DNA of 45,749 nucleotides from the NCBI GenBank assembly GCA_903847405.1, contig CAINDP010000003.1, forward strand, positions 1 through 45,749, written 5' to 3'. This document shows positions 9,170 through 30,876 of the stretch, piece after piece. This DNA comes from an uncultured Myxococcales bacterium (GTDB taxonomy: Bacteria > Myxococcota_A > UBA9042 > DTJE01). Numbering within the stretch: the first letter of the stretch is position 1; each line of letters starts with the position of its first letter. Made by a program: the position numbers and the translations under genes. The notes under the pieces were generated by a model. It ran no database searches. It was not told the origin of the DNA and saw only the letters and a program-made list of their open reading frames with translations.

Positions 9170-9721
9170 CTACGAGAGCAGCGAATCGAAGTCCGCAGCG
9201 ATTCCCAGTCGGGAAGCCCATTCGCGCAGGTATTTCATGTCCAGTCTGGGCCCCTGGACCTCCAGGACGCGCCGGGCATCCATTCGCTGCCGCTCGCTGC
9301 CACCCGACAGCCGGCTCCAGACCAGTTTCTGGAGAATGGTGTCTTCGGGGGTGGATACCGGCATCGCAAGCCCGAACACGGGTACCGTTTCCCGCCGGGC
9401 GAATCGCTCTTGATCGAAGGGGTCTTCGGTCAGCATCCAGAGGTCGACCTTGTCCCCGCCCTCGACATCCAGGAGGTTGACGAGACCGCGGGTCCTGACG
9501 GCGCGCTCCACGCCGGCCCGATCCAGGTGAAACCGGGGGGGCGGAAAGGCATCGACCAGCCGGTCGATCGCCGCCGGAGCGAGGTCCACGACGAGGTCGA
9601 TATCATGCGTCGACCGTGGTTCCCCCTGGAGGCTCGAGGCGAGGGAACCCGTCAGCATGAAGGGGACACCCGCACCCTCGAGGACGTGAACGACCTGGAT
9701 CAGGAGTTCCTTCTGGCCCAC
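9170..9721 (-). CDS. MNT-like nucleotidyltransferase (possible toxin of a TA-like pair)
   Basis: A 183-residue protein with the minimal nucleotidyltransferase pattern: G-S (25-26), D-I-D (Asp40, Asp42) and a third acidic residue in V-D-L-W (Asp93). The middle contains M-P-V-S-T-P-E-D, common in AbiEii/DUF6036-type proteins. It starts with GTG at 9721, inside the end of a small upstream gene (22-bp overlap), so translation is probably coupled. Such pairs are often annotated as toxin-antitoxin or abortive-infection modules. It lies convergent to parB with a 12-bp gap. Confidence 0.72.
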   Translation of the reverse strand: MGQKELLIQVVHVLEGAGVPFMLTGSLASSLQGEPRSTHDIDLVVDLAPAAIDRLVDAFPPPRFHLDRAGVERAVRTRGLVNLLDVEGGDKVDLWMLTEDPFDQERFARRETVPVFGLAMPVSTPEDTILQKLVWSRLSGGSERQRMDARRVLEVQGPRLDMKYLREWASRLGIAADFDSLLS

Positions 9722-9915
9722 TGCAGAACCTCCGCGGCCGCGAGCCGCCGGATCTCGTCGTCGGCAAGGCCGGGGTTCCGGCGACTCAGGCCGGCCCGGT
9801 GCGCTTCGCGTACCAGTTCTTCAAGTTCCAGCGCCTTCGCCAGCCGCTGTTCGGGACTGAGGCGCCGGAGGATTGCGACCTGGAGGTCCAGGTTCGGGCG
9901 GGGTTTCGGATCCAT
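9700..9915 (-). CDS. Small protein paired with the nucleotidyltransferase (antitoxin-like)
   Basis: A 71-residue, highly charged, predicted all-helical protein. It has the pattern S-P-E-Q-R-L-x-K-A-L-E-L ... A-G-L-S-R-R-N-P-G-L-x-D-D-E. I recall this pattern from short proteins encoded just upstream of nucleotidyltransferase genes in many bacteria. It starts at the ATG at 9915, preceded by GGAGGCAAACC. The 22-bp overlap with the following gene supports a dedicated pair. It has no DNA-binding motif I can see. The 83 bp between its start and the kinase stop hold nothing recognisable. Confidence 0.65.
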   Translation of the reverse strand: MDPKPRPNLDLQVAILRRLSPEQRLAKALELEELVREAHRAGLSRRNPGLADDEIRRLAAAEVLQWARRNS

Positions 9916-9998
9916 GGTTTGCCTCCGGATCCGAGGATACCCTTCCCAAGGGACGGGCTCAAGCAACCCGCGAGGGGCTTCCATCGTCGGACGCAGGC

Positions 9999-12650
9999 CT
10001 AGTCGAACCGCCCCCGGCGGGCCGCCACCTCGGCGGCGCTGACCATCCCGGCGGGAACCACGACGGTGACCTGGTCCAGGTCCTCCATCGACATGCCCCA
10101 CTCCCGAAGGGCCGTGCGCATGTAGGTCACTGCCTTCGCGGCGGGCGCAGGGGCGGGGATCTCGGCCATTTCCTCCCGGCGCTGGACCAGCCGGGACAGC
10201 CACCGGTCGGCCAGACGCAGTTGGCGGATGCCGGTGACGGCCATCTGCTCCTGGAAGCGCAGGGCCAGCGGGACGTGGGCGTCGACCAGCCGGTCGAAGG
10301 TGGGCCGGTCCAGCTCCAGCAGTTCGCAGTCCCCCAGGGCCCGCACCGAGGCCGACCGGGGCCCGCCGTCCACCAGGCCGATCTGGCCCACGACGCTGCC
10401 CTCGGCGAGGGTGGCCAGGATCAGTTCGTCGCGGCCCGCGTGCCGCACGATTTCCAGGTTGCCGGACGTGAGGACGAAGCAGGCGTCCCCGGTTTCGCCC
10501 TCCCGGCAGATCCAGGTCCCGCCCTTCACGGATCGGCTGCGGGCCACCTGGCCCAGCACCTTCAGGTCGTTGGCGTTGAAGCAGCCCGACCGGGTCGGCC
10601 GCCGGGGGTCGAACCCCGAGGCGGTTCCGGCCCGACCCGGGGCAGGGGCCCGGGACACCTCCGGCGCGCCGGATGGCTGCCGGCCTACCTCGCGGACCAG
10701 GGCCTCGATGCGCTTGTCGGTTTCCCGCACGCGCTCGGCCACCTGCGAGATCACGGCCCGGATCACGGCCACGTAGGTCCCGGGGTCGGTCTCGCGAAGG
10801 GCGGCCAGCGTGCCCCGGTCGACCACGCAGACCTCGGCGTCCGACATTGCGATGACGCTGGCCCCGCGGGGGGCCGGATCCAGGCAGGTCATCTCGCCCA
10901 CCACCTCGCCGGGCCCGATTTCCGCCAGCAGCGTCGGGCGTCCCGGCCGCATCTGGATTTCCAGGCGGAAGCGCCCGGACACGATCACCACCATCGAGTC
11001 GCCCGGGGCGCCCTCGTGGAACAGTGTTTCCCCCGCCCGGACGTGCGACACGGGCAGTTGCCCCGCCAGCCGCATGTACAGCGAGTTGAAGCCGGCGCCC
11101 CGCATCAGCCCCAGCACCCGCAATTTCACCTCGGCCAGGGACGCGACGTGGTCCTTCGCCTCGGCCAGCCGGCGCTGCAGGAAGGCCGAATCCAGGTCCG
11201 CCCCCTCATCCAGGGACTGCCGCACCCAGAAGTCCACGACCCGCCGTTCCTGGATCAGGCCGGCGTCCAGCGCCTGTCCCAGGTGCGCGTCCGCCCGGAT
11301 GGAGGACACGCTGGCGCGTACCGATTCCTCGAACTTCCCCGCGGGATCGCGGGTGCGGTCGACGGCCGGCGCGCCCCCCCAGGCGCTTTCGCCGCGGCCG
11401 GCCGATTCGCAGGCCCGGCGCAGCAGCCCGGCGGTGGCCTGCTCCTCGGCCGCCAGCGAGGTGAACAGGTTCCGGCCCGAGGCGCTGGTGCACTGCCTCA
11501 CGGCCTGCTCGTAAAACGCGGCGCTCTCGGCGGCCAGCCCCAGGGCCTGCGTCAGCATCGTGACGGCCCGGGCGCGGGTCTTCGAGGCCAGGCGGGGGCC
11601 CGGGTCGCAGACCGTGTCGTGCGGTGTCGGCAGGGGCGACAGGGGCGCCGGGGCGGGGGACCGTGCGGAACGGGCCGGCTGCGGCGCGGAAGCCTGCGGC
11701 GTCGCGTCCCGTCCGACCGCGGCCGACAGGATCCGGCGCGCCTGGGTCGCGGAGGCCGGACGGCGGGCCGGATCGATGGCCAGCAGGCTCGCCAGGGCCG
11801 CATCGAGTGCCGGGGGAAGACTGACCCCCGGCGCGACCGCCGCCACCGTCGGGGCGGGCTCCTTCAGCTTGCGGAGGATCAGGGCGATCGCCGAGGTTTC
11901 GTCGAACGGCAGCCGGCCTGCCAGCAACTCGAACAGGATGGCGCCCACGGAATACAGGTCCGAGCGGGCGTCCAGCTCCTTGCCGCCGGCCTGCTCGGGG
12001 CTCATGAAGGCCGGCGTGCCGAACGTCGTGCCCGCCTGCGTGATGACCGAGTCGTCGAGGCGGGCGACCTTGGCCAGCCCGAAATCCATGACCTTCAGGA
12101 AGTTCGGCGGCTGGTCCAGCACGAAGACGTTGTCGGTCTTGAGGTCGCGGTGCAGGACGCCCTCCCGGTGCGCCTCCTCCAGCGCCTCCAGGATCTGGTC
12201 GACCAGGCCCACGGCCCGGACGGGGTCCATGGGCCGCGCCTCGGTTTCCGCCAGGGTCGACAGCGGGCGCCCGCGCAGCAGCTCCATGGCGATGTAGAAC
12301 TGCCCGTCCGCGGACTGGCCGAAGTCGAACACGGTGATGGTGTGCGGGTTGGTCAGGCGGCTGGCGGCCCTGGCCTCGCGGAAGAAGCGCCGGATCGCAT
12401 CCTCGTCCGACAGGTTTTCGGGCCGCAGCAGCTTCAGTGCCACGTCCCGCTGGATCGAATGCTGGAGGGCCCGGTAGACGATGCCCATGCCGCCGGAGCC
12501 CAGCAGCCCGGTGATCGTGAAACGCCCGTCGATCTTCCGTCCGATCATCGGGTCCGCGGTGCTGACCAGGAAGGTCTGCGAGCCGTCCCTGGGGCACGTC
12601 CGCACGTCGTCATCCAGGCGGTCGTCGCAATGCGGGCAGAAGCGCGTCAT
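9999..12650 (-). CDS. Ser/Thr protein kinase fused to a ferritin-like segment and two cyclic-nucleotide-binding domains
   Basis: 883 residues. Order: a zinc-ribbon-like N-terminus (Cys5, Cys8, Cys19); a complete Hanks-type kinase at about 42-310 (glycine loop 50-55, Lys73, Glu92, H-R-D 167-169, D-F-G 189-191, S-P-E 217-219); a Pro/Ala linker; a rubrerythrin-like helical region at about 360-520 (A-A-F-Y-E-Q-A, then L-A-A-E-E); and two cNMP-binding domains. The first keeps G-E-M and P-R (Glu586, Arg595); the second has Gln756 in place of Glu but keeps Arg765. The ATG at 12650 is preceded by GGAGGGACGG; a GTG at 12683 is possible. A promoter lies at 12711-12738. The kinase looks active and probably responds to cAMP or cGMP. 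Confidence 0.9.
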   Translation of the reverse strand: MTRFCPHCDDRLDDDVRTCPRDGSQTFLVSTADPMIGRKIDGRFTITGLLGSGGMGIVYRALQHSIQRDVALKLLRPENLSDEDAIRRFFREARAASRLTNPHTITVFDFGQSADGQFYIAMELLRGRPLSTLAETEARPMDPVRAVGLVDQILEALEEAHREGVLHRDLKTDNVFVLDQPPNFLKVMDFGLAKVARLDDSVITQAGTTFGTPAFMSPEQAGGKELDARSDLYSVGAILFELLAGRLPFDETSAIALILRKLKEPAPTVAAVAPGVSLPPALDAALASLLAIDPARRPASATQARRILSAAVGRDATPQASAPQPARSARSPAPAPLSPLPTPHDTVCDPGPRLASKTRARAVTMLTQALGLAAESAAFYEQAVRQCTSASGRNLFTSLAAEEQATAGLLRRACESAGRGESAWGGAPAVDRTRDPAGKFEESVRASVSSIRADAHLGQALDAGLIQERRVVDFWVRQSLDEGADLDSAFLQRRLAEAKDHVASLAEVKLRVLGLMRGAGFNSLYMRLAGQLPVSHVRAGETLFHEGAPGDSMVVIVSGRFRLEIQMRPGRPTLLAEIGPGEVVGEMTCLDPAPRGASVIAMSDAEVCVVDRGTLAALRETDPGTYVAVIRAVISQVAERVRETDKRIEALVREVGRQPSGAPEVSRAPAPGRAGTASGFDPRRPTRSGCFNANDLKVLGQVARSRSVKGGTWICREGETGDACFVLTSGNLEIVRHAGRDELILATLAEGSVVGQIGLVDGGPRSASVRALGDCELLELDRPTFDRLVDAHVPLALRFQEQMAVTGIRQLRLADRWLSRLVQRREEMAEIPAPAPAAKAVTYMRTALREWGMSMEDLDQVTVVVPAGMVSAAEVAARRGRFD

Positions 12651-12855: not shown

Positions 12856-13794
12856 ATGCGGATCACGGTCTATGGCACCCGGGGCGGGACGCCGATCGCG
12901 CGTCCCGGGATCCGGCACTACGGCGGCAACACGACGTGCCTCCGCGTCCATTCCACGTGCCTGCCCGTCGGCACCGCGCTGCTGGTCGACGCCGGCACCG
13001 GGATCGTGCCCGCCTCGTTCGACCTGCTGGCCGAGGGCATCCGGCGCATCGTGCTGCTGATGACGCACTACCATCACGACCACACGCTGGGGTTTCCCCT
13101 GGCGCCGCACACCTTCGATCAGGCCGTCCCCATCGACGTCCACGGCCCGCGCGAACACGGAATCGGCCCGCGGCAGGTGTTCCAGGCCCTCATGAGCGCC
13201 CCGTTCTTCCCGGTGGACTACGCCGTCGTCGCCGGCCACATCACCTGTCACGACCTGGACGCCGTCGGGACCGACGCGCTGGTGATCCACCCGCGGGACG
13301 GCGTTCGTCGCGCGGATCCGGGGGAACTGGAGCGCCGCGCCGGTGCGGGCCCGGATGCCCTGCAGGAGTGCCTGGTCGTCCGCACGCACCGGACGGTGCA
13401 CTCGGGTTGCACGGTGTCGTACCGCTTCGAGGAGCGGCCCACGGGCAAGGTGGCCGTCCTGCTGACCGACCACGAGGACGCGGAAGCCCTGCCCCCGGAC
13501 CTCCGCAGGCACGTGTCCGATGCGGACCTCCTGATCCAGGATGCCCAGTACACCCGCGCGCAGTACCGGGCCCGCACCGCCGGCTTCGGTCACGGGACCG
13601 GCGACCACGCGGCCCGCCTCCTGAAGGAATGCGACGTGGGCCGCCTGGGCCTGACGCACCACGACCCGATGGCGAACGACCCGGACGTCGATGCGATCGT
13701 CGGGGAGGCTCGAACCTGGCTGGCGGACAACGGCGCCGCGGCCCGGGGGGGCGCGGTGTTCGCATGCGCGGACTACCAGGTCATCGAGGTCTAG
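12856..13794 (+). CDS. Metallo-beta-lactamase-fold hydrolase
   Basis: A 312-residue member of the MBL superfamily. It has the metal motif H-Y-H-H-D-H at 71-76, L-T-D-H-E-D further on, G-H-G-T-G-D-H-A and L-T-H-H-D as later metal ligands. The N-terminus V-Y-G-T-R-G-G-T-P with H-Y-G-G-N-T-T-C-L resembles the RNase Z / PhnP-like subgroup that cleaves phosphodiesters. The substrate is unknown. Given the neighbouring cyclase and cNMP-binding kinase, a cyclic-nucleotide phosphodiesterase role is a possibility, but nothing in the sequence proves it. Its 3' end overlaps the convergent lipase-like gene by 14 bp. Confidence 0.85.
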   Translation: MRITVYGTRGGTPIARPGIRHYGGNTTCLRVHSTCLPVGTALLVDAGTGIVPASFDLLAEGIRRIVLLMTHYHHDHTLGFPLAPHTFDQAVPIDVHGPREHGIGPRQVFQALMSAPFFPVDYAVVAGHITCHDLDAVGTDALVIHPRDGVRRADPGELERRAGAGPDALQECLVVRTHRTVHSGCTVSYRFEERPTGKVAVLLTDHEDAEALPPDLRRHVSDADLLIQDAQYTRAQYRARTAGFGHGTGDHAARLLKECDVGRLGLTHHDPMANDPDVDAIVGEARTWLADNGAAARGGAVFACADYQVIEV

Positions 13795-15028
13795 GAGCAC
13801 CGCGCTTCGCGGGGGACGACGCGACGGTCGCCCCGGGCCCCGGGCGGATCACGTCGGCGACCGCCCGGTACAACTGGAAGAATGCGTCGTCCTCGAAGCC
13901 CGAGCCGCTGTCCAGGAGGCCCGTGTCGGCCTTCACCTTGTGCCCCATCGGGTGGCGGTCGTCGCGATCCCGGTCGTAGTGCCCGATCACGTCGGCGTGG
14001 TCCCCATGGACCACCGCGGCCAGGACGCCCCCCTTCGCGGGAATCATCGCGCCCGTGTTGACGATGCCGTCGTTGTCGGTGATTGCCAGCGGTCCCGGGG
14101 TTTCCATCGGGTCGCCGATCACTCCGGGAATCTCGCCGGTTTCGCCGTTCAGGCGTTCCAGGTTCCGCAGGACCTGGGTCGCGAACCCCTGCTCGCCGGC
14201 GCGGCGGATCTCGTCGTAGCACACCCGGTACAGCGATTCCCGGCACCGGTGGTGGTGGCCGGGCATCCGGGGGCGCGGCGCCACCGAGGCGAAGCAGGTG
14301 ACCGTGCGGTCCCGCGGGAAGGGCGCCTGGTGCATGGTTTCGGCCATCCGCTCGGGCAGGAGGTCGTCCACCAGGCGGCGATCGCCCAGGACGTCCTGGG
14401 CCATCTTGCCGGTCGCCCGGGTGTCGATCAGCGCGTTGATCGCCAGGTCGAAGGGGCCGGTGTTCCGGAGGCAGGCATGGCGGCCCAGCGCGGCCAGTCC
14501 CTGTCCCAGCACCTGGAAACCGCGCCGGTTCTGCCAGAGGCCTTCGGGGAAGTCGCCGATCAGTTGCAGGGCCGGGGACCGCGTGATGGCGGCCCCGTAG
14601 AAGGGCGCCGAGATGGCCACGACCGACCCGATCCGGTCCGCGATGCCCGCGAAGGCCCCCCAGGAACCGGAAAACGCCGCCGCCTCCCGGCGCGCCTGGC
14701 CCGTCGCCAGGGGCTTGCCGCATAGCAGCAGCCACGCGTCGACCCCCCCGGTGCTATGTCCCACCAGATGGACCTTCCGGCACCCCCGCAACAGGTCGTC
14801 GCCCAGGTACTTGCCGATCCGCCTCTGCAGGAACTGCTGCCGCTGCCCCAGCGACGCCGTGGGGAGTGTCGCCAGGGGGATGACCGGGACGTCGATCCCG
14901 GTGCGCGCCCAGAGGGCCGTCCGCAGCGTGGCCCCGGCGCGGTCCACGAAATACTGGAAATCGTTCAGTTTGTCGAACCCCAGGAACCCCGGCAGCAGGA
15001 ACACCACCTCGTCGTGACCCTTCGCCAT
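13781..15028 (-). CDS. Lipase-like alpha/beta hydrolase
   Basis: A 415-residue protein with the oxyanion segment L-L-P-G-F-L-G-F at 11-18 and the nucleophile elbow V-G-H-S-T-G-G (Ser92). Probable acid and histidine parts of the triad lie in the C-terminal third (T-D-N-D-G-I-V-N-T and H-G-D-H-A-D-V-I-G-H). The late D-G-I-V-N-T resembles bacterial triacylglycerol lipases. There is no signal peptide, so it is probably cytosolic or exported by another route. The frame is open to 15187, but the ATG at 15028 with GGAG..GGGGG upstream gives the natural family start, and a promoter sits at 15056-15084. The ester substrate is unknown. Confidence 0.78.
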   Translation of the reverse strand: MAKGHDEVVFLLPGFLGFDKLNDFQYFVDRAGATLRTALWARTGIDVPVIPLATLPTASLGQRQQFLQRRIGKYLGDDLLRGCRKVHLVGHSTGGVDAWLLLCGKPLATGQARREAAAFSGSWGAFAGIADRIGSVVAISAPFYGAAITRSPALQLIGDFPEGLWQNRRGFQVLGQGLAALGRHACLRNTGPFDLAINALIDTRATGKMAQDVLGDRRLVDDLLPERMAETMHQAPFPRDRTVTCFASVAPRPRMPGHHHRCRESLYRVCYDEIRRAGEQGFATQVLRNLERLNGETGEIPGVIGDPMETPGPLAITDNDGIVNTGAMIPAKGGVLAAVVHGDHADVIGHYDRDRDDRHPMGHKVKADTGLLDSGSGFEDDAFFQLYRAVADVIRPGPGATVASSPAKRGAPRPR

Positions 15029-15055
15029 CCCCCGACTCCGCTCCCGTAGGCGTCG

Positions 15056-15084
15056 AGTGTCCGACACCGTGCCGACCGACGCAA
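15056..15084 (-). promoter_or_regulatory. Possible promoter of the lipase-like gene
   Basis: On the minus strand: TTGCGT (15084-15079), a 17-bp spacer and GACACT (15061-15056), about 30 nt before the ATG at 15028. The -35 and -10 are each partial matches. Confidence 0.38.
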
Positions 15085-15141
15085 GCGCCGGTTTTCCACC
15101 GGATACCCCCCCCGGGGCGCCCCGCCCCCCGGAATCCCCGA

Positions 15142-15169
15142 TTGACGCGCCGTCCCCCCGTGCGATACT
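15142..15169 (+). promoter_or_regulatory. Promoter of the adenylate cyclase operon
   Basis: TTGACG at 15142-15147, a 16-bp spacer and GATACT at 15164-15169. Transcription would start near 15176, downstream of the first in-frame ATG at 15142, which supports the GTG at 15208 as the true start. Confidence 0.55.
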
Positions 15170-15207
15170 CCGTCTGCACGATCTCACAGGCGGAGTCAGG
15201 AAGCGGG

Positions 15208-17289
15208 GTGTTTACCACCTACCACGTATCCGTCGCCTTTTCGGCCCTGTTGGCCCTGCTGTGTCTGCGCGTCCTCCTGCACGACCCGCGCCGGATCCAG
15301 AACCAGGTCTTCTTCGCCATCGGCCTGGCCGTGGCCGTCTTCACCGGCTCCATCTACCTGTCCTTCCTGTACCCCGAGCGGCCCGACATCACGACGCCCC
15401 TCAACCGGATCTCGGTGATCTTCACGGCGATCGTGACCAGCCTGCTGCTGTACTTTTCGCTGGTCTTCCCGACCGTCCACGTGCGGCGAAAGCGCCTGGC
15501 ACCGGTACTGATCCTGGCACCTGCGCTGGGCATCCTGTTGCTGGGGTTGCTGGACGACCTGTTCGTCGCGCGGATGGTCGTCCACGAGGAGGCCGGCGGG
15601 CTGGTCATGGACCGCCAGACGGGGCCGTTGTACCGGTTCCTGTATGCCCCGCTGGTCATGTTCAACATCGGGGGCGCCATCGTCGGCTTCGTGATCCAGT
15701 ACCGGCGCTCCACGACACACATCGAGCGCAAGCAGTTGGCCTACACGGCCATCGGCATGGCCGGCGGCGGCGTGGCGGCGACGATTACCTGCATCGTGCT
15801 GCCCCTGCTGGGGTATCCCGAGTTCTACGTCATGGGACCCGCGATCGGGACGCCGGTGTTCATCCTGGTGATGGTCTACAACTTCCTGACCTTCAAGGCG
15901 ATGGACGTCGATCAACTGCTGTCCACGTCGGTGCTGTGGGTGCTGTCGCTGTGCGTGTCGGCCCTGCCGTTCGGGCTGGTCACGTACGTGCTGCTGCGCA
16001 ACACGGAGCGCTTCACCGTCGTCACGGGCACGCTGTTCATGCTGCTGGGCCTGGGGTTCGTGTACGGGTACCAGAACCTCGTGCAGCCCGCCATCAACCG
16101 GCGCCTGAAGCGCAAGGTCCACGACTACCGGAGGCTGATCCAGAGGTTCAACCTGCGCATCCTGAAGTTGACGAAGCTGCAGGACCTGCTGACGTCCGTC
16201 ACCGACCTGCTGACCGAAACCCTCCAGCCCCGCAGCATCAGTTTCCTGCTGCAGGGGGTCGGGAGGGGCGAGTACACCATCATCAGCGATGCCCGCGATC
16301 TGCAGCGCCAGGGCTCGCTGACGCTGTCCACCGACCGGACCCGCTACATCGTGGAAAACGCGGAGGTCCTGGAGCGGGAACAACTGGAAATGAACCCGGT
16401 ATACGCCCCGGAGATCCGCGAGGCGGGCAAGCGCTACCTGAAGGCGTTCGACGCCGAGGTTTCGGTGCCGCTGGTCTTCGAAGGTCGCCTGATCGGGGCC
16501 ATCAACCTAGGGCCCCGGCAGAAGGGCTATTACGGGCGCATCGAAATCGAGTTTCTGGACAACCTGCGCACCGGCATGAACGTGGCGCTGTCGAACTCGA
16601 TGCTGCTGAAGGACATCGAGAACATCAACACCGCTTACGAACGCTTCGTCCCGCGCGAGATGCTCAGCTTCCTGGGAGCCGAATCGATCGTGGACGTGGG
16701 CCTGGGCGACCACACCGAGGTCGAAATGACGGTGCTGTTCGCCGACATCCGCGCGTTCACGGAACTGTCCGAGGAAATGACCCCCGACGAGAACTTCCGC
16801 TTCATCAACGCCTACCTGCACCACATCGGGCCCGTGGCGCGCCGGCACAACGGCTTCATCGACAAGTACATCGGGGATGCCGTGATGGCGCTGTTCCCGT
16901 CGGGTCCGGACGACGCCATCCGCGCCGCCCGGGAAATGATGCGGGTGTTGCGGGATTTCAACGTCGAGGAGGCCCGGGCAAAGCCCATCGACATCGGCAT
17001 CGGCATCCACACCGGCGTGCTGATGCTGGGGACCATCGGCGAGGCCCGCCGCATGGAGGCGACGGTCATCGCGGACGCGGTGAACCTGGCGTCGCGCCTG
17101 GAGGGCCTGACCCGTACCTACGGCGTCCACATCATCACGTCGGAGCAGGCGCTGGCGGGCGTGGCCGATCCCTCGGCATACCCGCACCGGCACCTGGGGA
17201 CCGTGCAGGTCAAGGGCAAGCGTCGCGCCGTCGAGATCTACGAGATCCTGGTGGAGGACGAGGCCCCTTCATTCACGGAGGCACCATGA
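15208..17289 (+). CDS. Membrane adenylate cyclase (multi-TM sensor, GAF-like, class III cyclase)
   Basis: 693 residues. The first ~290 hold about eight transmembrane helices of the histidine-kinase 7TM sensor type. A cytosolic region at about 320-475 looks GAF-like (S-V-P-L-V-F-E-G-R-L-I-G-A-I-N-L-G). A class III cyclase domain spans about 500-680: metal-binding Asp513 in L-F-A-D-I-R-A-F and Asp557 in Y-I-G-D-A-V, Lys553 in I-D-K-Y, and D-A-V-N-L-A-S-R with Asp623, Asn626 and Arg630. The Lys/Asp pair is the adenine-selecting combination, so cAMP is the expected product. The GTG start has CGGAGTCAGGA upstream. Its stop overlaps the next ATG (ATGA), so it is translated with a flavoprotein. Confidence 0.92.
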   Translation: MFTTYHVSVAFSALLALLCLRVLLHDPRRIQNQVFFAIGLAVAVFTGSIYLSFLYPERPDITTPLNRISVIFTAIVTSLLLYFSLVFPTVHVRRKRLAPVLILAPALGILLLGLLDDLFVARMVVHEEAGGLVMDRQTGPLYRFLYAPLVMFNIGGAIVGFVIQYRRSTTHIERKQLAYTAIGMAGGGVAATITCIVLPLLGYPEFYVMGPAIGTPVFILVMVYNFLTFKAMDVDQLLSTSVLWVLSLCVSALPFGLVTYVLLRNTERFTVVTGTLFMLLGLGFVYGYQNLVQPAINRRLKRKVHDYRRLIQRFNLRILKLTKLQDLLTSVTDLLTETLQPRSISFLLQGVGRGEYTIISDARDLQRQGSLTLSTDRTRYIVENAEVLEREQLEMNPVYAPEIREAGKRYLKAFDAEVSVPLVFEGRLIGAINLGPRQKGYYGRIEIEFLDNLRTGMNVALSNSMLLKDIENINTAYERFVPREMLSFLGAESIVDVGLGDHTEVEMTVLFADIRAFTELSEEMTPDENFRFINAYLHHIGPVARRHNGFIDKYIGDAVMALFPSGPDDAIRAAREMMRVLRDFNVEEARAKPIDIGIGIHTGVLMLGTIGEARRMEATVIADAVNLASRLEGLTRTYGVHIITSEQALAGVADPSAYPHRHLGTVQVKGKRRAVEIYEILVEDEAPSFTEAP

Positions 17290-27800: not shown

Positions 27801-29705
27801 GTGGTGCGCCTGGAGGACCGGAAGGACAGCATCGACGACCCCCGGTCCCCGGGGGACCTCCGTCCGTCGTGGCGAAGGATGGCCGTCGCGGTCGCGGCGG
27901 CCTCGGTGCTGGGCGGGCTGGCGGCCGCGTACCCGTCGTCGGATCCCGACGCCTGGTTCCACCTGTCGCTGGGACGCCAGATGGCTGAAACCGGCGGCAT
28001 TCCCGCGACCGAGTCCGCCTGCGCCGTTTCCGAGGGGCGCCCCTTCGCCAACCACGAGTGGCTGTACGACCTGGGCCTGTGGGAGGCCTGGGACCTGGCC
28101 GGGCCCGCGGGGACGACCGCCCTGCGGATCGTCCTGGCCGGGCTGCTGACGGGGCTGTCGGCCGCCTTCGCCCTGCGTCTGGGGGCCGGTCCGGGGCTGG
28201 CGGTGGTGGCGGTGCTGCTGGCGCTGCCGGTGGTCCGTCCCTACCTGGACCTGCGGCCCCACGTGGCCGGGTACGCGCTGGCCCTGGTCTTCGTGCACCT
28301 GCTGTGGGCCCGCGGCCGTCCCGGGATCGGGCGCATCCTGGCCCTGGGCCTGGTGGCGGCGGTGTGGGCCAACGTCCACGGCTCGTTCCCGCTGGCGCCG
28401 ATCCTGGCCGGCATGCGGGTCCTGCGCCCGGGGACCGGGGAATCGACCCGGGATCGGGTGGCCTGGGGCGTGGCGGCCCTGGCCGCGGCGGCGGCGACGC
28501 TGGCGAACCCCTGGGGACCGCTGCTGTACGCCACGGTGGCGCACCACGGGATGCCGGTGCACCGGATGGCCACGGAATGGGCCTCGTGGGATTTCGGCGC
28601 CAGCATCGCCCGGGACGCGTGCTTCCTGGCCCTGACGGCGGGTGCGCTGGCCGGATTCCTGGCCCGGGGGCGTCGCGGGGCGCTGGACGAACTGGCCCTG
28701 CTGGGGGTCTTCCTGGTCCCGGTGCTGGGGTCGGAAAAGTTCGTCCCCGGGCTGCTGGTCGCGTCGGCGCCGATCCTGGCCGCCCACCTGTCCCGGTGGC
28801 GGGTGCTGCGGTCGCCGGTGGCGATCGGTGCGGCGTCCGCGGTCCTGTGCGCGGCGGTTGCCGTCGTGCCCCCGGGGACCTCGGCCGCGGGCGGATTTTC
28901 GTACGTGGAGCAGCCCCGGGAGGCGCTGGCCTTCGCCCGGGACGCGGGGTTGCGGGGGCGCGTGTTCCATCCGTTCATCGCCGGCGGGTACGTGGGATTC
29001 GCCGGGCTGCCGGAACTGCAGCCCTTCATCGACGGCAGGCTGTACATCCACGACGCGGACGGGGTCGCGACCTACACGAAGGCGCTGCAGGACTACGACG
29101 GTTTCCGGTCCCTGCATGCCCGGTTCGGGTTCGTGGCGGTGATCGTCGATCGCCAGGACGCGGGGTTCGGCATCCTGGGCGACGGGCTGTCCCGGGACCC
29201 CGCGTTCCGCCTGGCCTGGCTGGACGACCGGTTCGCGATGTGGCTGCCGTCGGCCCTGCGCCAGGACCTTCCCGGCTTCCGGATCCTGCGGGCCGGGACC
29301 GACCCCCGGTACCTCTTCGACCTGCCGGACGACGATCTGGCGCGGGCAGACGAGGAGGTGGCCCGGGTCCGGGCCTCGGGGCGTGGCGAGGAAACCGGGT
29401 GGCTTGCGGGGGGACTGCTGGGGCTGCGGCGGGCCGGCCTGTCCTGGGCCCCGGCCGATGCGCTGCGCCCGCCGATCCGCCGCGCGGGATGCGTGGATGC
29501 GGCGACCGACCTGGGATTGCTGGTGTCGCGCCGGCCCGACGTGCCGATGTTCGGGTACTTCCACGCCGTGGCGCTGGCCTGCATGGGGCGTTGCGACGAA
29601 GCGCAGGCGGCGGCCGAAGGGGCGCGGGCCTTCCCGGATGCCCGGGATCTGGCCGGGCGCCTCGCGGCGGGGGCCTGTTCCCCCGAAGTGCTCGACCGTC
29701 ATTGA
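27801..29705 (+). CDS. Polytopic membrane protein, GT-C-like
   Basis: 634 residues. About eight to ten transmembrane helices in the first ~370 residues are preceded by a loop with D-P-D-A-W-F-H (48-54) and N-H-E-W-L-Y-D (84-90). This acidic/His first loop is typical of a family of large membrane proteins related to GT-C glycosyltransferases and O-antigen-type proteins. A soluble C-terminal half contains a Rossmann-like stretch and a final TPR-like part. The GTG start has GAGGA five bases before it. It is followed 31 bp later by a glycosyltransferase-like gene. Enzyme activity is inferred, not shown. Confidence 0.62.
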   Translation: MVRLEDRKDSIDDPRSPGDLRPSWRRMAVAVAAASVLGGLAAAYPSSDPDAWFHLSLGRQMAETGGIPATESACAVSEGRPFANHEWLYDLGLWEAWDLAGPAGTTALRIVLAGLLTGLSAAFALRLGAGPGLAVVAVLLALPVVRPYLDLRPHVAGYALALVFVHLLWARGRPGIGRILALGLVAAVWANVHGSFPLAPILAGMRVLRPGTGESTRDRVAWGVAALAAAAATLANPWGPLLYATVAHHGMPVHRMATEWASWDFGASIARDACFLALTAGALAGFLARGRRGALDELALLGVFLVPVLGSEKFVPGLLVASAPILAAHLSRWRVLRSPVAIGAASAVLCAAVAVVPPGTSAAGGFSYVEQPREALAFARDAGLRGRVFHPFIAGGYVGFAGLPELQPFIDGRLYIHDADGVATYTKALQDYDGFRSLHARFGFVAVIVDRQDAGFGILGDGLSRDPAFRLAWLDDRFAMWLPSALRQDLPGFRILRAGTDPRYLFDLPDDDLARADEEVARVRASGRGEETGWLAGGLLGLRRAGLSWAPADALRPPIRRAGCVDAATDLGLLVSRRPDVPMFGYFHAVALACMGRCDEAQAAAEGARAFPDARDLAGRLAAGACSPEVLDRH

Positions 29706-29736
29706 CCCCGCCGGCCCCCGCGGGCAGAATCCGCCC

Positions 29737-30876
29737 ATGATCGCGGCCGTCATCGCTCTCGTCCTGGCACTCCTGTCGATCGCGCTGGCGATCCCGGTCC
29801 TGGCCGCCTGGGTCCGCGGTCGGCGTGTCGTCGCGGGGCGGGATCTGGGACAGTCGGTGCTGGTGGTCGTTCCCCTGCCCCGGGGGGCGGCGCCCGGGCG
29901 GTCCCTGGCCCGATCGCTGGCCGCGGCCGCCCACGGCGGACCGCTGGCGGTGCGGGTGGCCTGTTCCCCCGGCGGGACCGAAGGCGATCGATGGGTCGAG
30001 GAGGCCCGTCGGGCGGCTCCGGCCCTCGATGCCCGCGTCGTGACGGCGGCGCCTCCGGGGCGACACGTTCCCGCGGCGTGGCTGGCCGTCGAGGCGTCCC
30101 GGGGGGATGCGTCGGAGGTGGTCGCCCTGGTGGACTCGCGGGCCCGGCCCACGGCCCGGGACCTGGCGCGCCTGCTGGCGTGCCCGGGCAGCGGGGGCGC
30201 GACCTGGGTGGCCGCGGTGCCGGTCCCGGGGACCGGCGCGGGTGCGATGGGGGCGATGCTGGCCGTCCTGGCGGGGGACCTGGCGCCGCTGGCCGCCGCG
30301 TCGTGCGGTGCCGAGGCCCTGCCCACCCTCCTGACGGCGGGCACCCGGGACGCCTGGGACCATGCCGTCCGGGATCCGCTGGCCCTGAACCGCCCTTCCC
30401 TGGCGGTGTCCGCGGCCCTGCGCGCCGGCCCGGCCGCGGCGCTGGTCCCGGTGCCGTCGGCCCTTGCGGCGGGCTGCGAGGGAACGGTCCTGCGGCAGTC
30501 GGTGGCGGTGCTGTGGCGGTCCCGGCCCGGTGGCATGGCGCTGGTGGCCGCGGCATACCTGGCGCTGCCCCTGGCCCTGGCGGTCCGGGCGACGGCGACG
30601 GGTTCGGCGGCGGCGGTCGCGATGACGGCGGTGGTCCTGGCGTGGACCGCCCGCCTGGCGGTCGCGGCGACGTGGACGCGCGGGACGCGGGGCGACGGGG
30701 CGGCCCTGGCGGCGGCCCTGGCCGCGCCGCTGCGGGATGCTGCGGCCCTGCTGGTCCTGGGGGTCGGGGCGGCCTCGGCGCGAATCGAGGCGGGCGGGAC
30801 CCGGTTCCGGATCCGGCGGGGCGGCGTCCTGGTTCCCACGGCAGACGGCCGCGGGGCGGCGGACGAGGATTTCTGA
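29737..30876 (+). CDS. GT21/HpnI-like membrane protein, probably degenerate glycosyltransferase
   Basis: 379 residues. An N-terminal transmembrane helix (about 3-25), a GT2-type soluble domain, and two or three C-terminal transmembrane helices give the topology of ceramide-glucosyltransferase-like (HpnI) proteins. The position of the catalytic DxD reads V-D-S-R (Asp133-Arg135), so the second acidic residue is lost. A Q-S-V-A-V-L-W segment stands where Q-x-x-R-W is expected, and the end R-F-R-I-R-R-G-G also resembles that family. Very Ala/Arg/Gly-rich. It may be an inactive or altered-specificity relative; assignment is tentative. Confidence 0.5.
   Translation: MIAAVIALVLALLSIALAIPVLAAWVRGRRVVAGRDLGQSVLVVVPLPRGAAPGRSLARSLAAAAHGGPLAVRVACSPGGTEGDRWVEEARRAAPALDARVVTAAPPGRHVPAAWLAVEASRGDASEVVALVDSRARPTARDLARLLACPGSGGATWVAAVPVPGTGAGAMGAMLAVLAGDLAPLAAASCGAEALPTLLTAGTRDAWDHAVRDPLALNRPSLAVSAALRAGPAAALVPVPSALAAGCEGTVLRQSVAVLWRSRPGGMALVAAAYLALPLALAVRATATGSAAAVAMTAVVLAWTARLAVAATWTRGTRGDGAALAAALAAPLRDAAALLVLGVGAASARIEAGGTRFRIRRGGVLVPTADGRGAADEDF

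Follow-up and report, generated by a model that had tools for sequence, protein, structure and literature searches.

In PKG, a Ser/Thr kinase and tandem cyclic-nucleotide-binding (CNB) domains reside in a single chain, with the CNB domains N-terminal to the kinase and an arginine in both phosphate-binding cassettes (PBCs). The PBC glutamate normally bonds to the 2'-OH of the ligand, and at this position Epac1 has Gln270, which governs how it responds to 2'-O-methyl analogues (PMC4300089). According to Table 1 of Kannan et al. 2007 (PMC2246266), Epac is the sole family with a G-Q consensus among 30 CNB families. The same survey notes bacterial combinations of kinase and CNB in passing, among the 'Other_bacterial' CNBs, and Planctomycetota Ser/Thr kinases with CNB domains are mentioned in PMC11032199. 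These resemble the protein described here in joining kinase and CNB within one bacterial protein, but where the two surveys mention them they are given as domain combinations, without a tandem unit pairing a Glu site with a Gln site (E/Q) and without gene context. Since bacterial kinase-CNB fusions have thus been noted, only direct regulation by a cyclic nucleotide would be new. In our literature search, in which subscription journals were thinly covered, we found no report of direct control of a bacterial Hanks kinase by cAMP or cGMP, nor of an E/Q CNB pair or a kinase-hydrolase-cyclase gene context. In myxobacteria, PP2C phosphatases with a C-terminal cNMP domain are described (Mxan4398, sce2855 and sce6950; PMC2887360); these too are phosphorylation enzymes with a C-terminal CNB from the same phylum, but they are phosphatases and carry a single CNB.

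We analysed a stretch of 45,749 nucleotides (the window) from a 5.65-Mb Myxococcota assembly of 273 contigs, in which one gene encodes a kinase followed by two CNB domains (Table 1). The open reading frame listing offered an alternative upstream start at a GTG (12683). The ATG at 12650 was preferred because the orthologue in a related genome (L001 of G001) begins at the matching Met with the same MTRFCP. The bounds given for the gene in an earlier sequence-only reading are therefore better than those of the GTG-start frame, and all residue numbers in that reading were right in ATG numbering. The third-position GC content of the 883-residue frame, 0.93, agrees with that of the coding genes in the window. 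From the N-terminus, the protein consists of a zinc ribbon, a Hanks kinase, a helical bundle, CNB1 and CNB2. The zinc ribbon and the helical domain of about 170 residues, as well as the neighbouring hydrolase and cyclase genes, are features beyond those recognized earlier.

Table 1. Features of the kinase locus, with positions in the window.
Feature	Position	Strand	Basis or remark
Kinase/tandem-CNB protein	9999..12650	-	883 aa; ATG 12650, stop 9999; ORF, orthologous start, Pfam domains
Zinc-ribbon-like motif CPxC...CPxDG (C5, C8, C19)	12576..12641	-	Three Cys invariant in six orthologues
Hanks Ser/Thr kinase domain, PknB/StkP type	11742..12515	-	Pfam Pkinase 1.1e-41; PDB PknB/StkP; invariant residues
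Four-helix domain between kinase and CNB1	11103..11621	-	AlphaFold2 helices, mostly good confidence
CNB1 (site 1)	10788..11045	-	PF00027 2.9e-22
PBC 1, GEMTCLDPAPRGASVIA, with Glu586 and Arg595	10848..10898	-	Glu/Arg invariant in six orthologues
CNB2 (site 2)	10278..10535	-	PF00027 6.2e-21
PBC 2, GQIGLVDGGPRSASVRA, with Gln756 and Arg765	10338..10388	-	GQ..R in 49/51 tandem-CNB loci
C-terminal tail LREWGMSMEDLDQVxVVVPxG	10041..10109	-	L848, E850, W851 invariant
Metallo-beta-lactamase-fold hydrolase, candidate cyclic-nucleotide phosphodiesterase	12856..13794	+	PF12706 2.4e-7; divergent from kinase
Lipase/hydrolase-like protein, no known family	13781..15187	-	Between hydrolase and cyclase; 66% identity in L001
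Membrane/GAF/class III nucleotide cyclase, predicted adenylyl cyclase	15142..17289	+	PF00211 1.5e-17

Kinases of the PknB/StkP type are normally activated by dimerisation, and PknB itself by trans-autophosphorylation. The kinase domain of the window (residues 46-303, Pfam Pkinase E=1.1e-41) carries every mark of an active Hanks-type enzyme: the Gly loop, the VALK Lys, the helix-C Glu, HRDxKxxN, DFG and SPE. In an alignment of six orthologues GxGGMG, K73, E92, HRDxKxxN (D169, K171, N174), D189-F-G, S217-P-E219 and R297 were all invariant, so the complete set of catalytic motifs claimed earlier was confirmed. Its best matches in the PDB were PknB/StkP, at about 1e-44 against about 1e-25 for PKG, and it is not of the AGC type to which PKG belongs. 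Homology to PKG is therefore rejected. The sequence-only reading had proposed a PKG-like layout in reverse order; the C-terminal placement of the CNB domains holds, but an evolutionary link is not supported, and because the kinase is PknB-like the resemblance is convergent, the two architectures having no common origin. The PknB/StkP PASTA kinase equivalog (NF033483) scored 266 bits against a cutoff of 450 and matched the kinase part only, so the protein is not assigned to it.

Outside the catalytic domain, the Pfam match of the N-terminus to Zn_Ribbon_1 was sub-threshold. AlphaFold2 folded the region between kinase and CNB1 as a four-helix bundle, for which a ferritin-like topology is possible from the model; the full-length model had a pTM of 0.39, its domain packing being unreliable, and the linker at 316-350 was of low confidence. 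A match of the bundle to DUF2383 was sub-threshold, and Foldseek gave no significant match for it. A diiron ferritin-like sensor was considered but drew no support from that Foldseek result or from the putative metal ligands (ExxH-like), which are not kept in all orthologues. At the other end of the protein, a tail similar to the C-terminal one (LDQVxVSVPxG) closes the CNB2 proteins that family f12, described below, encodes separately.

The Pfam search also found the two CNB domains that had been predicted, with a joint E-value of 4e-44 for the two cNMP_binding stretches. Site 1, GEMTCLDPAPRGAS, shows the canonical PBC pattern of G-E and P-R-x-A-S/T, and its Glu586 and Arg595 were invariant in the six orthologues, as expected of the canonical site proposed earlier. 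Site 2 departs from this pattern in that Gln756 replaces Glu, with Arg765 kept. The alteration noted there stands: R765 was invariant, and position 756 was Gln in four orthologues and Leu in two (G010 and G011), so ligand binding at site 2 is perhaps dispensable. Across 51 tandem-CNB loci, G-E...R was present at site 1 in 49 and G-Q...R at site 2 likewise in 49, and G-Q is absent from all seven other CNBs of the window's genome. Because the Gln is a phylum-wide signature of tandem CNBs, it is a conserved asymmetry and not a drifted site. Mere degeneration of site 2 was therefore rejected as a general reading, G010 and G011 having moved on to Leu. By its residues, the predicted state of site 2 is that of Epac1, whose PBC also begins with G-Q and keeps the Arg. 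Epac1, however, is a guanine nucleotide exchange factor, whereas here the Gln site is paired with a canonical Glu site.

A CNB domain alone is no proof of cyclic nucleotide sensing, since some other CNB proteins of the same genome carry degenerate PBCs. Three further proteins of this genome were recorded. On contig C149 (L143:625-1983) a PP2C phosphatase, like the PP2C-cNMP proteins known from myxobacteria, has a C-terminal CNB with a non-canonical PBC that lacks the Arg; on contig C31 (L142:1519-3501) a type II/IV secretion ATPase (T2SSE with MshEN) has an N-terminal CNB; and on contig C197 (L145, ~28378-30150) a 781-residue open frame encodes a zinc-ribbon Hanks kinase that ends in a class III cyclase domain, the latter probably degenerate.

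Homologues were searched with the C-terminal part of the protein in 13 genomes of one Myxococcota family. The full-length architecture, with its domain order kept, was found in six of them, which span four genera, at 41-71% identity. In G005, a similar zinc-ribbon kinase N-terminus lies head-to-head with the same hydrolase gene, and the contig end cuts the gene. In G002 the kinase is missing and the flanking genes are retained, which reads as a loss. No record in a plasmid collection spanned 80% of the 883-residue protein.

The tandem-CNB unit itself was present in 52 of 284 sampled Myxococcota genomes, mostly without a kinase, and then as one gene or two adjacent genes, both in the class and in the phylum. 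Among the tandem-CNB loci, some of which have short flanks, fusion to a kinase was seen in only six genomes of the family. G012 (L051 9347-12513) also has a stand-alone tandem E/Q paralogue, 47% identical to the fused one, and the opposite strand next to it carries the gene of a further CNB protein. In G031 (L117 2368-4553), an unfused tandem CNB gene has a divergent class III cyclase gene as its neighbour.

Unfused CNB domains are linked to a kinase in another family, f12. There, in 12 genomes, the CNB pair lies upstream of a Ser/Thr kinase gene in a fixed order on one strand (L096-L109): CNB1 and CNB2, or a single CNB1-2 stretch, then usually a tRNA-modification-like gene that on our reading is dihydrouridine-synthase-like, then the kinase. 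Between the kinase and the gene before it lie about 0.4-0.7 kb, so that a common transcript would be no more than a possibility. Gene order is inherited among relatives, so that 12 genomes do not amount to 12 independent events. At eight further f12 loci the CNB genes are present and the few kb of downstream sequence covered contain no kinase. In a tree of the kinases, the fused ones formed one clade (support 98) and the f12 linked ones another (support 100), and the two were not sisters. Orthology of the two kinases is thus rejected, and the association of CNB with kinase arose twice. The f12 arrangement, in which free-standing CNB proteins and a Ser/Thr kinase have their genes close together, recalls the R and C subunits of PKA and may yield an R/C-like pair. 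It differs from PKA in that CNB1 and CNB2 mostly occur as a protein each, and their interaction with the kinase is suggested by gene order.

The hydrolase gene is head-to-head with the kinase gene in the window (G000) and in G001, G010, G011 and G012, and the G005 locus is cut by the contig end. The HxHxDH motif and the other metal ligands were the same in all four intact copies of the alignment; the G001 gene appears frameshifted. Its match to the cyclic-nucleotide phosphodiesterase family NF041851 was weak, at 33.6 bits against a cutoff of 400. With a score so far below the cutoff, phosphodiesterase activity is offered here as a hypothesis. Pfam gave no match for the lipase/hydrolase-like protein. 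The cyclase aligned best with CyaB-type adenylyl cyclases (3r5g), keeps the DKxxGD and VNLASRLE motifs and, with its PF00211 match, has the features of a class III adenylyl cyclase; from the catalytic residues and general knowledge of the family, we take it to be of the adenylyl and not the guanylyl type. The G001 locus has an 85% identical cyclase gene. The kinase-hydrolase block is inverted between G000 and G001, and the cyclase is nearby in both, about 2.5 kb and 1.4 kb from the kinase, respectively. In G004 only about 50 bases separate the cyclase orthologue from the hydrolase gene, and the kinase is on another contig. Within the family, no genome other than these three has a cyclase orthologue, and all three have the fused kinase; in G010, G011 and G012 the cyclase is not near the kinase. 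An anti-phage role was considered and set aside, since any Hanks kinase or class III cyclase should give PADLOC matches of this kind. Downstream of the kinase, two short overlapping genes (9170-10203, minus strand) encode a nucleotidyltransferase-like protein and one weakly similar to an Rv0078B-type antitoxin, possibly a toxin-antitoxin pair.

As judged from these residues, the protein has an intact kinase and a canonical site 1, while site 2 retains its Arg and carries Gln in place of the Glu that binds the ribose. The proposal that a cyclic nucleotide may gate the kinase is strengthened by the invariant PBC residues, by the second, independent CNB-kinase association and by the nearby adenylyl-cyclase-like gene. 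We favour, with a probability of roughly 0.6, a soluble PknB-type Ser/Thr kinase that would be switched by its C-terminal tandem CNB unit through cAMP, which is a more likely ligand here than cGMP. The cAMP would come from class III cyclases such as that encoded at 15142-17289 and bind to site 1, the main switch. Site 2 would bind more weakly or depend less strictly on the 2'-OH, in the manner of Epac1, serving as an asymmetric second or co-operative site; the E/Q asymmetry predicts that 2'-O-alkyl cAMP analogues are tolerated at site 2 and not at site 1. Once ligand is bound, the paired CNB domains would shift relative to the helical bundle and the kinase lobe, and this movement would relieve (or impose) inhibition of the kinase, the direction not being readable from the sequence. 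The metallo-beta-lactamase-fold enzyme would be the likeliest candidate for terminating the signal. The protein would have originated by fusion of the phylum-wide tandem-CNB unit to a lineage-specific kinase. It would then work like PKG or PKA by convergence, with a PknB-type kinase, the site-2 Gln, the zinc ribbon and the helical bundle setting it apart from PKG.

The CNB pair could instead bind a cyclic nucleotide without gating the kinase, setting its dimerisation, location or choice of substrate while the kinase trans-autophosphorylates as PknB does. The low-confidence linker and the separate bundle between kinase and CNB1 are consistent with such an arrangement, as is the kinase type, dimerisation being its normal route of activation. 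We nevertheless regard it as unlikely, since an association of kinase and CNB that arose twice fits direct coupling slightly better. What the domains bind is a distinct matter. A different cyclic nucleotide, a nucleoside, or nothing at site 2 would be compatible with the missing Glu there; PMC6440977 and PMC10959531 give accounts of trypanosome PKA in which the CNBs have switched to nucleosides, and PADLOC found weak similarity of the cyclase to Pycsar pyrimidine cyclases. The retention of both phosphate-binding Arg, the canonical and invariant site 1 and the closer similarity of the cyclase to CyaB-type adenylyl cyclases make a ligand other than cAMP or cGMP improbable. The absence of the protein from several genomes of the family, including G002 with its retained neighbours, could be taken to mean that the fusion is accidental or in decay and serves no conserved function, but a gene that is intact in six genomes of four genera, with catalytic and PBC residues invariant, leaves very little room for this.

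Gating of the kinase by cAMP thus remains the preferred reading. More tentatively, and on balance short of an even chance, Myxococcota may own a cAMP-dependent kinase system independent of that of eukaryotes, in which an E/Q tandem CNB controls Ser/Thr kinases and is either separate from its kinase (PKA-like) or fused to it (PKG-like), some genomes also having a cyclase and a phosphodiesterase dedicated to it. If true, control of kinases by cyclic nucleotides would have a second evolutionary origin, independent of PKA and PKG, and a comparison of related families with the unit fused or unfused would reveal how regulators of this kind are put together.
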